Shown here one piece after another: positions 14,100 through 38,662 of a DNA stretch of 64,000 bases. This stretch comes from Hyphomonadaceae bacterium (GTDB taxonomy: Bacteria > Pseudomonadota > Alphaproteobacteria > Caulobacterales > Maricaulaceae): NCBI GenBank assembly GCA_013001295.1, contig JABDMW010000040.1, positions 1 through 64,000 on the forward strand, given 5' to 3'. How positions within the stretch are numbered: position 1 is the first letter of the stretch; each line of letters begins with the position of its first letter. The translations under genes and the position numbers were made by a program. The notes beneath the pieces are model-generated. The model was not told where the DNA came from and made no database searches. It saw only the letters and a program-made list of their open reading frames with translations.

Positions 14100-14273
14100 G
14101 ACACTCTCCTTAATGGCTCAGGTAGTTTCCCAGTCTAGCAAGATTTCGCGCAAAAATCTATGATGAGTAAAATGTCGCTCAGTTAGAGCCGACGACCTCG
14201 CCGCCAATAATCGTCACGGTTCACGCCGCGCTGGTTTGAACCGGGTGAATTATTTCTGCCCTTTCCCAATCAC

Positions 14274-14394
14274 GTCATTGCCGGGCCGGTTGGCACGGCG
14301 CCCCGGCCGGCAATCCAACTCTGAGATTTTTCGTCTCCCGACAAGAGAACAATTAGCACAGGGTTGGATTACCCCGACAAGCGGGGTAATGACG
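14274..14394. repeat. family A palindromic element (A2)
   Basis: The left arm CGTCATTGCCGGGCC...GGCCGGCAATCCAACTC and the right arm CAGGGTTGGATTACCCCG...CGGGGTAATGACG are complete. It lies 25 bases before the GIY-YIG-bearing element A3, in the same orientation. Confidence 0.9.
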
Positions 14395-14419
14395 GGCGAG
14401 GATTTGAAGTTAAATTTAT

Positions 14420-14789
14420 CGTCATTGTCGGGCTTGTCCCGGCAATCCAACTCTGGTGTAATCAACTGGTGAAAAAGGGATATGTCTATCTGCTGGCCTC
14501 GCGGAAATACGGTACGCTTTATGTAGGTGTTACCAGCGATTTGCAGCGTAGACTTCACGAACATGAAAACGGACTTACGCCCGGATTTTCCTCAAGACAC
14601 AAGGTATCGATACTGGTCTGGTACGAGGAATATGATCTGATAACTGACGCCATTGCCCGTGAAAAACAAATCAAAAAATACAAGCGGCAATGGAAAATCA
14701 ATTTGATTGAAGCGGGCAATCCGGACTGGAAACCACTTTTGCCTTACTGACCTCAGGGTTGGATTACCCCGACAAGCGGGGTAATGACG
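14420..14789. mobile_element. family A element (A3) carrying a GIY-YIG gene between its arms
   Basis: The left arm (CGTCATTGTCGGGCTTG through CCGGCAATCCAACTCTGG, 14420-14457) and right arm (CAGGGTTGGATTACCCCG through GGGGTAATGACG, ending 14789) are ordinary family A arms, but the usual spacer of about 50 bases is replaced by a complete small nuclease gene. A decayed copy with the same layout sits at 25227-25492. The nesting suggests one mobile unit. Confidence 0.8.
14469..14750 (+). CDS. small GIY-YIG endonuclease inside repeat A3
   Basis: From GTG 14469 the product has 93 residues; the frame is also open upstream through the left repeat arm to ATG 14364, so the start is uncertain. It has the GIY-YIG core: GYVYLLASRKYGTLYVGV (two tyrosine motifs), the arginine-bearing SDLQRRLHEHENG, and the metal-binding glutamate in IAREKQIKKYKRQWK. 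These single-domain proteins (YhbQ/UPF0213-like) cut DNA, with few known roles. The gene is bounded on both sides by family A repeat arms, which points to a part in repeat spread. The end is NPDWKPLLPY. Confidence 0.85.
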   Translation: MKKGYVYLLASRKYGTLYVGVTSDLQRRLHEHENGLTPGFSSRHKVSILVWYEEYDLITDAIAREKQIKKYKRQWKINLIEAGNPDWKPLLPY

Positions 14790-19236: not shown

Positions 19237-19344
19237 CGTCATTGCCGGGCAAGGTCCCGGCAATCCAACTCTGAAGTATTCCGTCATACAACAGGGTGCG
19301 GATCGGCACAGAGTTGGATTACCCCTACAAGCGGGGTAATGACG
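19237..19344. repeat. family A palindromic element (A4)
   Basis: Both arms are complete: CGTCATTGCCGGG...CCCGGCAATCCAACTCTG and CAGAGTTGGATTACCCC...CGGGGTAATGACG, with spacer text AGTATTCCGTCATACAACAG. Confidence 0.9.
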
Positions 19345-21105: not shown

Positions 21106-21227
21106 CGTCATTGCCGGGCCGGTTGGTCCGGCGCCCCGGGCGGCAATCCAACTCTGAAGATTTCCGTCACACGACAGGGTGCGGATCAGCACAGGGTTGG
21201 ATTACCCCGACAAGCGGGGTAATGACG
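21106..21227. repeat. family A palindromic element (A6)
   Basis: Both arms are complete; the left hairpin is enlarged (CGGGCCGGTTGGTCCGGCGC). The spacer AGATTTCCGTCACACGACAG is the same as in A8 at 23048, so these two copies are close relatives. Confidence 0.9.
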
Positions 21228-23047: not shown

Positions 23048-23154
23048 CGTCATTGCCGCTCTTGTAGCGGCAATCCAACTCTGAAGATTTCCGTCACACG
23101 ACAGGGTGCGGATCAGCACAGGGTTGGATTACCCCGACAAGCGGGGTAATGACG
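23048..23154. repeat. family A palindromic element (A8)
   Basis: Both arms are complete: CGTCATTGCCGC...GCGGCAATCCAACTCTG and CAGGGTTGGATTACCCCG...GGGGTAATGACG. It lies 250 bases beyond the 3' end of the large terminase gene. Confidence 0.9.
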
Positions 23155-25077: not shown

Positions 25078-25199
25078 CGTCATTGCCGGGCTTGTCGGTC
25101 CGGCCATCCGGTGGGCAATCCAACTCTGGTGATTTCCGTCGCCCGACTGGATAAGGGTCAGCACAGGGTTGGATTACCCCGACAAGCGGGGTAATGACG
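25078..25199. repeat. family A palindromic element (A9) just upstream of terminase
   Basis: Both arms are complete; the left hairpin is enlarged (CGGGCTTGTCGGTCCGGCCA). It begins 20 bases upstream of the large terminase start and 28 bases from element A10, so it lies where the terminase promoter or operon link would be. Confidence 0.9.
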
Positions 25200-25226
25200 T
25201 GTGAGGTTTTGTGATTATATTTTATC

Positions 25227-25492
25227 GTCATTGCCCACCAGAGCGTTTCAAGAGAAACGCGTGCGTGTGGGCAATCCAACTCTGGTGTAATCAGCTTGTG
25301 AATTAGGGATATGTCTACCTGCTGGCCTCGCGAAAATATGGTACGCTTTATGTGGGTGTAAAGAGTGATTTGCCGCGCCGACTTCACGAACATGAAAATG
25401 GACTCACACCCGGATTTGAATCCACTTCTGCCCGACTGATCTCAGGGCTGGATTACCCCCGGAGCGCCGGACCGATAAAGCCGGTAATGACG
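25227..25492. mobile_element. family A element (A10) carrying a decayed GIY-YIG gene
   Basis: The left arm CGTCATTGCCCACC...GTGGGCAATCCAACTCTG has the mini-palindrome GCGTTTC-AAGA-GAAACGC (25244-25261) in its hairpin loop. The right arm is diverged (CAGGGCTGGATTACCCCC through CCGGTAATGACG). Between them lies a broken GIY-YIG gene closely similar to the one in A3. Confidence 0.8.
25298..25438 (+). pseudogene. GIY-YIG nuclease remnant
   Basis: The translation reads GYVYLLASRKYGTLYVGVKS and PRRLHEHENGLTPGF, nearly the same as the gene at 14469. A TAG stop stands at the third codon, and about 145 bases are missing between GGATTT and the codons for the last residues, so the glutamate-bearing helix is lost. 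It cannot be an active nuclease. Confidence 0.85.
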
Positions 25493-26488: not shown

Positions 26489-26963
26489 CCGCTCATCCCC
26501 CTGGAGAGGGGGATCCATAGAGATCTAACCGCGCCCTTGTCCGAGAAGAACTAATGATATATGTTCGTGTTATGTTCTTTACTTACATGGTGACAAATCA
26601 ATATCTGGGCACGCTGTATACAGGCCACACAGATGATCTTTCTCGTCGCATTGATGAACACAGAAACGGTGCCCTTCCGGGGTTTTCAAAGAAGTATGGA
26701 TGCACGCATTTGGTCTGGTTTGAACTTCACGAAACGCGTGCATCGGCCTTTCGACGCGAGCGTCAAATTAAAAGATGGAACCGCGCCTGGAAAATTCGGT
26801 TGATCAAAAAACTCAATCCGAAATGGGATGATTTATATCCCAAGCTTTCCGAAGCTTTCGTCTATGACGAGCAAAGAATTTTCAATCCGGCGCGTCTTTA
26901 ACCCGCCAGCCGCGCTGTTCCGATATTTTTATGGATCCCCACCTGCGTGGGGATGAGCGGGAG
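26489..26963. mobile_element. family B element carrying a GIY-YIG gene between its arms
   Basis: The left arm CGCTCATCCCCCTGGAG...GGGGGATCCATAGAG (26490-26523) and the right arm TTTTATGGATCCCCACC...GTGGGGATGAGCGGGA (26929-26963) are family B ends in inverted order. The shared B core is replaced by a complete GIY-YIG gene. This repeats, with an unrelated repeat family, the layout of element A3. Confidence 0.8.
26554..26901 (+). CDS. small GIY-YIG endonuclease inside a family B element
   Basis: The 115-residue product has the GIY-YIG core FFTYMVTNQYLGTLYTGH, the arginine helix DDLSRRIDEHRNGALPGF, and the glutamate in AFRRERQIKRWNRAWKIRL. It differs a good deal from the enzyme at 14469, as its host repeat differs from family A. 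A C-terminal tail (YPKLSEAFVYDEQRIFNPAR) follows the domain. GAGAAG stands before ATG 26554; ATG 26572 is an alternative. It probably cuts DNA; a role in copying family B repeats is inference. Confidence 0.85.
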   Translation: MIYVRVMFFTYMVTNQYLGTLYTGHTDDLSRRIDEHRNGALPGFSKKYGCTHLVWFELHETRASAFRRERQIKRWNRAWKIRLIKKLNPKWDDLYPKLSEAFVYDEQRIFNPARL

Positions 26964-30492: not shown

Positions 30493-30655
30493 CGCTCATC
30501 TAAGCGTTTCTTTTGAAACGCGTCGAAGACAGGCGCGGATGCGCCGCCCGATCAGGGATCCAGCGAATGAGCATGCGCGTCAGCGCATCCCGCAAGTCTC
30601 GAACTGGATCCCAGCTCACGCGTTTGGAGAGAAACGCTCGGCTGGGATGAGCGGG
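30493..30655. repeat. family B2 element with two nested mini-palindromes
   Basis: CGCTCATCTAAGCG and the core GATCAGGGATCCAGCG, GAGCATGCGCGTCAGCGCAT, ending GCTGGGATGAGCGGGG. Mini-palindromes sit at 30504-30521 (GCGTTTC-TTTT-GAAACGC) and 30620-30637 (GCGTTTG-GAGA-GAAACGC), at the same places as in the copy at 22835. Confidence 0.85.
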
Positions 30656-32581: not shown

Positions 32582-32688
32582 CGTCATTGCCGGGTTTAGC
32601 CCGGCAATCCAACTCTGAAGTTTTCCGTTCCGCGGCATATCACGGCTCGGCACAGGGTTGGATTACCGCCACAAGGGCGGTAATGACG
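32582..32688. repeat. family A palindromic element (A11)
   Basis: Arms CGTCATTGCCGGG...CCCGGCAATCCAACTCTG and CAGGGTTGGATTACCGCC...GGCGGTAATGACG are complete. The right hairpin uses CCGCC/GGCGG in place of CCCCG/CGGGG, a compensated change that keeps the stem paired. Confidence 0.9.
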
Positions 32689-34254: not shown

Positions 34255-34662
34255 TTAAGCATGCGGGCCTCCATGCTCGGTGAACTCCTGCATCTCAAAC
34301 CGCGCGCAGCCGTCGCCGGGCATCATATCGTGGGAGCTGAGCAGGTTGCGCTTCGCGCCAATCGCGCAGCGCCCGGTCAGGGGCATATTGGAGCGCCAAT
34401 GCACGCATTTGTAGCAGCGCGGTCGGTGCGTCCCGTCCGGCCTGAGCGGCCAAGCCTGCCCGGGGTGTTTGGCGTGGGGCGGGACGATCGCGCGTCCTTC
34501 GGAACAACTGAGCGGCCCTATTTCCCTATTACCGTCATTGCCCACCCTGTGTGGGCAATCCAACTCGGATGATTTCCATCGCACGTCAGGTCGCAGGTCA
34601 GCACAGGGTTGGATTACCCCGACAAGCGGGGTAATGATGGATTGAAGGCAAACCCCCATCAT
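34255..34662 (-). CDS. phage-block Cys-rich protein interrupted in frame by a family A repeat
   Basis: The frame starts at ATG 34662, overlapping the DUF1376 stop (ATGA), with GGGGGAGG five bases upstream. After about eight codons it runs straight through family A element A12 and then into a real domain: HRPRCYKCVHWRSNMPLTGR, CAIGAKRN and MMPGDGCARFEMQEF. The four Cys (CYKC...C...C) suggest a zinc site. The repeat adds about 37 residues without breaking the 136-codon frame. Whether the protein is made with the insert is unknown. The domain is seen in small phage proteins of unknown role. Confidence 0.65.
   Translation of the reverse strand: MMGVCLQSIITPLVGVIQPCADLRPDVRWKSSELDCPHRVGNDGNREIGPLSCSEGRAIVPPHAKHPGQAWPLRPDGTHRPRCYKCVHWRSNMPLTGRCAIGAKRNLLSSHDMMPGDGCARFEMQEFTEHGGPHA
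34533..34639. repeat. family A palindromic element (A12) inside a coding frame
   Basis: CGTCATTGCCCACC...GTGGGCAATCCAACTC and CAGGGTTGGATTACCCCG...GGGGTAATGATGG are both present. The element lies near the start codon of the Cys-rich phage gene and is read through in frame on the minus strand. Confidence 0.88.
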
Positions 34663-35330
34663 CGCACCTCCCCCAGCTCGAAGCCGGCATCGCTCAAAGC
34701 GTCCTCATAATCGTTGCTGATCTTGGAGCGAATGAATTTGGTGCGCGGCCTTAGGGTCGAGCCGTACAGGGTCGCCTGCCCCGGCCGGAACCAGGCCAGC
34801 CACACGCCCTCGCCATACGCCGCCACCACATGGTCATACAGGTGCCGCAACGGCGATCCCACGTCGGGTGGCTCGATGGTCGAACCCGCTCCCTCTTGAT
34901 CAATTTTTTTGTTTATTTTTTTATGGAGTCTGGCTTCTAGCTTCTTAACCTCAGCTAAGCCCTTGATTTTACGCCATTCCGGGAAAATTAAAACGAGATT
35001 ATGTAAAGATAATGTCGAGATAAAGTCGGGTTTAAGTTCTTTAAATACCCGTTTGTTGAACAGGCGGTCATGCCTGTGGATAACTTTTCCCTCGTCAAAA
35101 AGGCGCTCCATAATGATGTTGAACCGCCGCGTATTGCTACCGCAGGCACTGGCCAATCGCGCCGGTGATCCGGGCCGGTCGGGACGGGCATTTTTGATAT
35201 AGGGTATCGACCCACCTTGATCATACATCATGTCGAGCAGGCTGGCATACACGCCCCGTTCTTCTGCGGTCATACGCGTCACACCATGTAGAAAATCCGA
35301 CGGGAAATGCTTGTACCAAACAATGGTCAT
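34659..35330 (-). CDS. DUF1376 phage replication-region protein
   Basis: The 223-residue product begins VWYKHFPSDFLHGVTRMTAE and continues ERGVYASLLDMMYDQGGSI, the signature of DUF1376 (YdaU-like). Such proteins lie in the early region of many prophages and are thought to help replication start. The middle is very basic (ARLHKKINKKIDQEG) and the C-terminal third (HVVAAYGEGVWLAWFRPGQA) may be a second DNA-binding domain. The coding text is intact. The upstream region holds a family A element, a LexA box and three operator sites. Confidence 0.9.
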   Translation of the reverse strand: MTIVWYKHFPSDFLHGVTRMTAEERGVYASLLDMMYDQGGSIPYIKNARPDRPGSPARLASACGSNTRRFNIIMERLFDEGKVIHRHDRLFNKRVFKELKPDFISTLSLHNLVLIFPEWRKIKGLAEVKKLEARLHKKINKKIDQEGAGSTIEPPDVGSPLRHLYDHVVAAYGEGVWLAWFRPGQATLYGSTLRPRTKFIRSKISNDYEDALSDAGFELGEVR

Positions 35331-35376: not shown

Positions 35377-35483
35377 CGTCATTGCCGGGTTTATCCCGGC
35401 AATCCAACTCGGATGATTTCCGTCGCGCGATTGGAAACGGGACGGCACAGAGTTGGATTATCCACACAAGGTGGGTAATGACG
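35377..35483. repeat. family A palindromic element (A13) in the phage control region
   Basis: Arms CGTCATTGCCGGG...CCCGGCAATCCAACTC and CAGAGTTGGATTATCCACAC...GTGGGTAATGACG are complete. It sits between the DUF1376 start and the LexA box, so it separates that gene from its likely promoter. Confidence 0.9.
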
Positions 35484-38540: not shown

Positions 38541-38662
38541 CGTCATTGCCGGGTTTGTTGGTCCGGCGCTCCGGCCGGCAATCCAACTCTGATGCTTTCC
38601 GTCGTACAACAGGCCTTTTGTCCCTACAGGGTTGGATTACCGCCACAAGGGCGGTAATGACG
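38541..38662. repeat. family A palindromic element (A14)
   Basis: The left arm CGTCATTGCCGGG has an enlarged hairpin (TTTGTTGGTCCGGCGCTCCG) and ends GGCAATCCAACTCTG. The right arm CAGGGTTGGATTACCGCC...GGCGGTAATGACG has the same compensated stem as A11. Confidence 0.9.

Follow-up and report, generated by a model that had tools for sequence, protein, structure and literature searches.

A GIY-YIG nuclease gene between CGTC-tagged palindromes as a candidate mobilizer of bacterial repeats

We analyzed a stretch of 64,000 nucleotides from a Hyphomonadaceae bacterium (the window, below), in which a short GIY-YIG nuclease gene lies between two inverted palindromic repeats. From the sequence comparisons we consider it fairly likely that these 370 bp represent the autonomous unit of a mobile repeat system similar to the REPtron, with a small structure-selective GIY-YIG nuclease in the place of the RAYT. 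A common class of bacterial repeats, so far without an enzyme to disperse it, probably owes its spread to this nuclease.

The nuclease-bearing element and its relatives in the window

The element extends from position 14420 to 14789. Its left arm (14420–14449, forward strand, CGTCATTGTCGGGCTTGTCCCGGCAATCCA) is a CGTC-tagged REP with the CCA tail towards the gene, and its right arm (14760–14789, reverse strand, CGTCATTACCCCGCTTGTCGGGGTAATCCA) is an inverted CGTC REP. Folded as single-stranded DNA, each arm forms a 9-bp stem with a 5-nt loop (z-scores of -3.87 and -5.05, respectively). The enclosed gene is located at 14469–14750 on the forward strand and encodes 93 amino acids, from a GTG start codon to a TGA stop codon at 14748–14750, which is included in the coordinates. 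The first-pass annotation of this sequence had described intact arms of a repeat family A around a GIY-YIG gene open from the GTG at 14469, and our analysis confirmed this to the base. The gene product was assigned to Pfam family PF01541 (E-value 4e-15, above the cut-off).

The CGTC REPs were described by Di Nocera et al. in 2013 (PMC3733652) as elements with the tag CGTC, or TGTC/CCTC, a stem of 8–9 bp starting with AT, a loop of 4–5 nt and a CCA tail. They occur mostly as head-to-head dimers, predominantly in the Alphaproteobacteria, and include dRS3 of Neisseria and RPE-4 and RPE-6 of Rickettsia (PMC3733652). The same study noted that they "seem lacking a dedicated transposase", and no RAYT or IS200 gene was found there to be flanked by CGTC units (PMC3733652). 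All A arms in our data have an unpaired terminal CGTC tag, their folds agree with the described stem from AT and loop, and the A units have unpaired CCA tails and are arranged as head-to-head dimers. The repeats thus belong to the CGTC REP superfamily, family A being of the 9-bp/5-nt kind. Whereas the CGTC REPs of the 2013 description had no dedicated enzyme, the repeats enclose a GIY-YIG gene here and in other genomes, which amends the description and does not exclude the repeats from it. A search of Rfam gave no match.

The window contains ten A dimers of 107–128 nt (listed without strand), and the spacer is exactly 47 nt in all ten. Thus, of the earlier description of family A, the inverted hairpins stand and the spacer of about 50 bases is to be replaced by this fixed length. 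Dimers with this spacer are located at 402–529, 19237–19344, 35377–35483, 38541–38662 and 34533–34639, the last of which folds into two hairpins plus an inner stem (z -3.2). The dimer at 21106–21227 has a spacer identical to that of the dimer at 23048–23154. The DNA folds of the latter (z -8.0) and of the dimer at 32582–32688 (z -6.6) are four-way junctions. The remaining two are located immediately upstream of the A nuclease unit (14273–14394) and upstream of a degraded nuclease unit (25078–25199). The spacers could be aligned with each other, with a mean pairwise score of 0.70 as compared to 0.37 for shuffled spacers. Pairwise identity is 91–92% across the outermost 12 nt of the A arms and approximately 29% just outside, and this abrupt drop shows that what spreads is the stretch bounded by the two CGTC tags. 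Using pattern searches for the repeat counts in the genome, the exact A arm pattern was found 32 times, as compared to no occurrence of the reversed control pattern. As anticipated in the first-pass annotation, copies with the nuclease are few, namely two A units of which one is degraded, whereas spacer-only copies are many, with ten dimers across the window.

The stems are also supported by covariation. Across 42 distinct arms from this genome and its relatives, 98.4% of the cells were paired, and the stem covariation score was 0.498 as compared to 0.136 for shuffled arms (0/500). The inner stem pairs change on both sides. Only the outer stem was prescribed by the search pattern and the inner pairs could vary, so that this inner covariation is not an artifact of the pattern. 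The outer AT pairs fit either the hairpins or a closing stem, and this double use may account for the invariance of AT.

Four GIY-YIG stretches were identified in the 3.49-Mb genome. Besides the A gene, these are a degraded copy of it at 25304, the gene of family B at 26572–26901 and one stretch on another contig. The degraded unit (25226–25492, forward strand) contains the arms, with another palindrome nested in the loop of the left one, and the 5' part of the nuclease at 88% identity. It is interrupted by an in-frame TAG and has lost an internal piece between CCGGA microhomologies; it is an autonomous copy on its way to becoming a short non-coding one. The stretches 14273–14789 and 25078–25492 are homologous from the outer CGTC inwards, with 30–32% identity over 60 bp outside, and both are made up of an A dimer, a nuclease element and a short linker between them. 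The upstream dimer at 14273–14394 was duplicated jointly with the nuclease unit. The second nuclease gene is located on the forward strand and is 45% identical to the A nuclease. Its left arm (26491–26517, forward strand) has an 8-bp stem and a 4-nt loop, and its right arm (26932–26958, reverse strand) is the inverted palindrome of family B. The B arms carry the tag GCTC/GATC, divergent from CGTC. Two pairings are therefore present in one genome, an A nuclease with 5-nt-loop arms and a B nuclease with 4-nt-loop arms. The joint duplication, the degraded copy at 25078–25492 and the B gene between its arms were all absent from the first-pass annotation.

Some further features of the repeats were observed in the window. 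At 25226–25278, 479–529 and 30605–30652, loops of A and B arms harbor a small palindrome of a third kind (AGCGTTTC..GAAACGC), which has inserted there as if hairpin loops were its target. The left-arm loops of four A dimers (at 14273, 21106, 25078 and 38541) share the same 15-nt G+C-rich extension, giving an arm of 45 nt. The A-dimer flanks tend to be pyrimidine-rich outside the left CGTC and GATTGAGG-like outside the right end, a possible target preference. The genome also carries one Y1/RAYT-type transposase on another contig (G000:C19:13584-13907).

A minimal nuclease and its occurrence between palindromes

The A nuclease has intact catalytic residues and displays the marks of the GIY-YIG superfamily, as judged from Pfam, conservation and a structural model: the two tyrosine motifs, the arginine, the glutamate and the fold. 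Residues Y7, Y18, G20, R28, H32, E65 and N84 are conserved at 97–100% in 92 flanked homologues. The orthologues in Sinorhizobium differ by a dN of 0.009 and a dS of 0.279, showing purifying selection. The AlphaFold model (pLDDT 94.6) was nearest to UPF0213 structures (1ywl, 1zg2) and then to SLX1 in a fold search against solved structures. As modeled, the 93 amino acids make up the catalytic domain only and leave no space for a further domain that would bind DNA or transfer strands. To our knowledge, GIY-YIG enzymes do not join DNA, and we know of no tested function for UPF0213 proteins. SLX1 cleaves branched DNA (PMC6902002). A phage origin of the nuclease was considered and rejected, with only one distant phage homologue at 33% identity.

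We examined how general the location between palindromes is, using 106 homologue loci from the genome itself, 28 genomes of the family and 80 named genomes. Inverted repeats, scored as a match of at least 36 between the 300 bp on each side of the gene, flank 71 of the 106 loci, as compared to 2 of 404 control stretches shifted along the same loci (p = 2e-57). A stricter test, in which inward-pointing hairpins (tag TC, a stem of at least 7, tail CC) were required on both sides, identified 43 of 125 loci and none of 234 controls. Among the best matches in a class-wide sample, 15 of 29 were flanked (1/113 controls). At the strict threshold, 33–48% of the homologues are without flanks. Hosts of the flanked genes include Alpha-, Beta- and Gammaproteobacteria, Dehalococcoidia, Nitrospira, Elusimicrobia and Syntrophia. 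The pairing proposed in the first-pass annotation thus holds more widely than it had suggested, with CGTC palindromes in many bacterial groups. Some of the units are compact and IS-like; in locus L005, for example, the right arm lies within a few nucleotides of the stop codon.

Second nuclease copies within the family were flanked in 13 of 20 cases (0/80 controls). Of the more distant GIY-YIG genes, with 30–43% identity, 6 of 20 were flanked, all by a CTCATCCTGAGG..CGTCTCGAAGGATG palindrome; the controls for these genes and for the second copies together gave 0/160. The distant clade with this palindrome is represented by loci L157, L158, L164, L165, L167 and L171, suggesting a second superfamily of enzymes and palindromes.

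The architecture of the palindrome follows the nuclease lineage, as seen on a quick tree of the 90-residue proteins. Loop class (4 or 5 nt) required 5 changes on this tree, as compared to a mean of 18.8 and a minimum of 13 for shuffled classes (0/500). Similar results were obtained when the family of the window was left out (3 changes versus 13.3 shuffled, 0/500), within the family with long hairpins as a third class (9 versus 15.4, 0/500), and for the named Alphaproteobacteria alone (6 versus 10.5, 0/1000). Because loop class and nuclease may be inherited jointly, these numbers show the coupling and not its cause.

Repeat number, nuclease presence and turnover

The first-pass annotation had suggested that repeat number should track the presence of the nuclease. 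We analyzed this in a class sample of 143 other genomes (144 in all, approximately one per family), in which a nuclease was called at an E-value of 1e-15 or better. The relationship was borne out, with a median of 13 CGTC repeats in genomes with the nuclease as compared to 1 in those without (p = 3e-13). At least 10 repeats were found in 25 of the 45 genomes with the nuclease and in 8 of the 98 without (odds ratio 14, p = 2e-9), and the association was present in each of three genome-size classes. A Y1/RAYT transposase is missing from 13 of 16 CGTC-rich genomes, all 16 of which carry a GIY-YIG gene. We therefore rejected the RAYT as a general mobilizer of these repeats.

Within the family, the exact A pattern was found in 21 of 137 genomes. 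When the 136 other genomes were ranked by their nuclease matches, all nine with at least three clear A repeats fell within the top 44 (p = 2e-5, with a threshold chosen post hoc). Several family genomes with nucleases of 64–65% identity contain no A repeats, and the arms examined there (L007, L115 and L118) are of other CGTC types. The 13 congeners contain no exact A repeats, and their best nuclease matches are far below the A type. The first-pass annotation would have been refuted by relatives with the gene at this locus and no A arms around it; no such case was encountered, but the gene next to the A element has no homologue in any of these 13 genomes, and the locus is not comparable there.

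The congeners, lacking both, agree with the earlier expectation that genomes without the gene lack the repeats, but four class genomes with 29–53 repeats do not, since no convincing nuclease was found in them. Either the enzyme was lost from these four once the repeats had spread, or they are real exceptions. In a profile search of the eight repeat-carrying class genomes without the gene, one proved to have a broken nuclease, another a more distant gene and a third a weak match. In a CGTC-carrying genome with 11 repeats, the sole nuclease is broken by two stops (L226, G163:C10:15301-15483), which is consistent with loss of the enzyme after spread.

Comparisons of strains indicated how the repeats behave over short times. 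Three 50-kb stretches of the S. meliloti plasmid pSymB, 99.1% identical, displayed no CGTC polymorphism; the turnover of CGTC repeats is slow. In three 50-kb stretches of Sphingobium plasmids searched for fresh CGTC insertions, the indels were other palindromes or islands. Thus, no fresh insertion between close strains was found in pSymB or in the Sphingobium plasmids, and target-site duplications were not observed. One site in Sphingobium is occupied by arm, nuclease and arm in four strains and by a single palindrome in two, in which the outer half of one arm meets that of the other at a 7-bp CCCCGGG repeat. This palindrome is either a deletion scar or the state before insertion, and no direction can be inferred. 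A candidate empty site between hflX and mazG in Sinorhizobium was rejected because the nuclease is present in both genomes, and an indel near the nuclease of a Rhizobium plasmid, considered as an insertion, most plausibly arose by deletion between two dimers. At the orthologous sites of the Sphingobium and Rhizobium plasmids, deletions between repeats look as likely as insertions. A CCGTTCGGGCTGAGCCTGTCGAAG-type dimer is polymorphic in Sphingobium plasmids of approximately 97% identity, being present in L149 and L151 and absent from L150 (at about 31.2–31.8 kb in the compared orientation).

Interpretation and relation to known systems

Under the reading that we prefer, the 107-bp dimers with the 47-nt spacer would be non-autonomous relatives of the nuclease-bearing unit, kept and spread in trans. 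A dimer that is single-stranded or extruded as a cruciform would form two hairpins or a four-way junction. The nuclease would recognize this hairpin or junction by its architecture, that is, by loop class and tag, and may incise the base of the hairpin near the CGTC and CCA borders. The freed or broken ends would then be copied or joined into new sites by the replication and repair functions of the host, which are invoked because a strand-transfer domain is absent. The lack of target-site duplications and of a joining activity argues against classical transposition and in favor of a route through copying or repair.

The GIY-YIG enzymes are classical homing nucleases (PMC1564403), and the nuclease gene could instead be a homing-like parasite that inserts into pre-existing CGTC dimers, which would be its recognition sites, and spreads between them by cutting and gene conversion, the repeats being spread otherwise. 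The Sphingobium site with the nuclease unit in four strains and a solitary palindrome in two would suit this explanation, as would the repeat-rich genomes without a nuclease, although the solitary palindrome is equally explained by deletion at the CCCCGGG repeat. Homing would need other means for new sites to be made, and no other candidate enzyme was found, Y1 being absent from 13 of the 16 genomes. Furthermore, repeat number tracks the nuclease, and the spacer of the short dimers is not split at the ends of the nuclease unit, with the exception of a shared subterminal ACTCTG/CAGGGT. We consider this explanation unlikely.

There is a very small chance that the nuclease is a passenger, an ordinary repair gene in repeat-rich islands where REP dimers pile up in the intergenic gaps. 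REPs are known between genes, the window is rich in repeats and one ordinary gene (34659–35330) is itself located between two A dimers. This gene was the only one flanked among 150 ordinary genes in repeat-rich stretches, however, and flanks were found around 0.5–0.9% of the shifted stretches as compared to 52–67% of the nuclease genes. The coupling of loop class to the nuclease phylogeny and compact units such as L005 also argue against a passenger. The palindromes could also serve as transcription or mRNA elements, or the nuclease could be a domesticated caretaker that resolves REP hairpins during replication without moving them. The slow dynamics in S. meliloti are in line with such a role; GTAG REPs act as terminators and mRNA stabilizers, and RAYTs have been described as domesticated. 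Regulation or maintenance leaves unexplained the dispersal of units that share their ends and a constant spacer of 47 nt, and also the duplication of a nuclease unit with sharp ends, and Rfam gave no match; we regard it as highly improbable.

The mobile system that we favor is most similar to the REPtron, that is, GTAG REPs and REPINs with their RAYT. In both, the enzyme gene is flanked by palindromes that are dispersed in the genome, few enzyme copies are accompanied by many repeats, dimers are the units of spread, the enzyme lineage is matched to the palindrome type and the dynamics are slow. The RAYT (TnpA-REP) is an HUH Y1 transposase (PF01797) that performs covalent strand transfer on single-stranded DNA with a GTAG guide, whereas the enzyme described here is a 93-amino-acid GIY-YIG protein (PF01541) with another fold, a CGTC tag and no known strand-transfer activity. 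In its workings the system resembles a REPtron, but it falls outside that group, since its enzyme is not HUH and its tag is not GTAG.

The catalytic fold and the setting of a selfish gene are shared with GIY-YIG homing endonucleases of the I-TevI type. Unlike these, the A nuclease has no NUMOD or other DNA-binding domain and no intron, and its gene lies between repeats that mark many dispersed units rather than inside one allelic target; the system is not a homing endonuclease of a known sort. SLX1 and UPF0213 are nearest to the A nuclease in sequence and fold among solved structures, although SLX1 differs in being a repair nuclease with the partner SLX4 and a zinc finger. We know of no report of either in connection with palindromic repeats. 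Terminal inverted repeats are shared with insertion sequences (DDE, HUH, Tyr or Ser), but a recognized transposase is lacking here and the sole gene encodes the GIY-YIG protein. Penelope-like retroelements are also mobile elements that use a GIY-YIG nuclease domain (PMC1564403), but they encode a reverse transcriptase, whereas the A units carry no other gene. A literature search, with preprints and most subscription journals outside its scope, identified no paper that links GIY-YIG to REP, REPIN, RAYT, dRS3 or CGTC repeats.

Our opinion is evenly balanced on the broader proposal of a new minimal class of mobile element, in which a lone structure-selective GIY-YIG nuclease would recognize and mobilize cruciform-forming palindrome dimers. 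The class would be found in Proteobacteria, Dehalococcoidia, Nitrospira and others, in several matched lineages with 4-nt-loop, 5-nt-loop and long-hairpin CGTC palindromes and a distant clade with CTCATCCTGAGG-type palindromes. We see an even chance that the system deserves standing as a class of its own.

The CGTC REPs, including dRS3 of Neisseria and RPE-4 and RPE-6 of the rickettsiae, are widespread and have been without an enzyme since 2013, and they now have a candidate. This makes the question of the enzyme directly testable with one protein of 93 amino acids and 107 nt of DNA. If the proposal is true, REP-type systems arose at least twice, on the unrelated HUH and GIY-YIG enzymes. It would also provide a function for thousands of genes annotated as "GIY-YIG nuclease family protein" or, misleadingly, as "excinuclease ABC subunit C".
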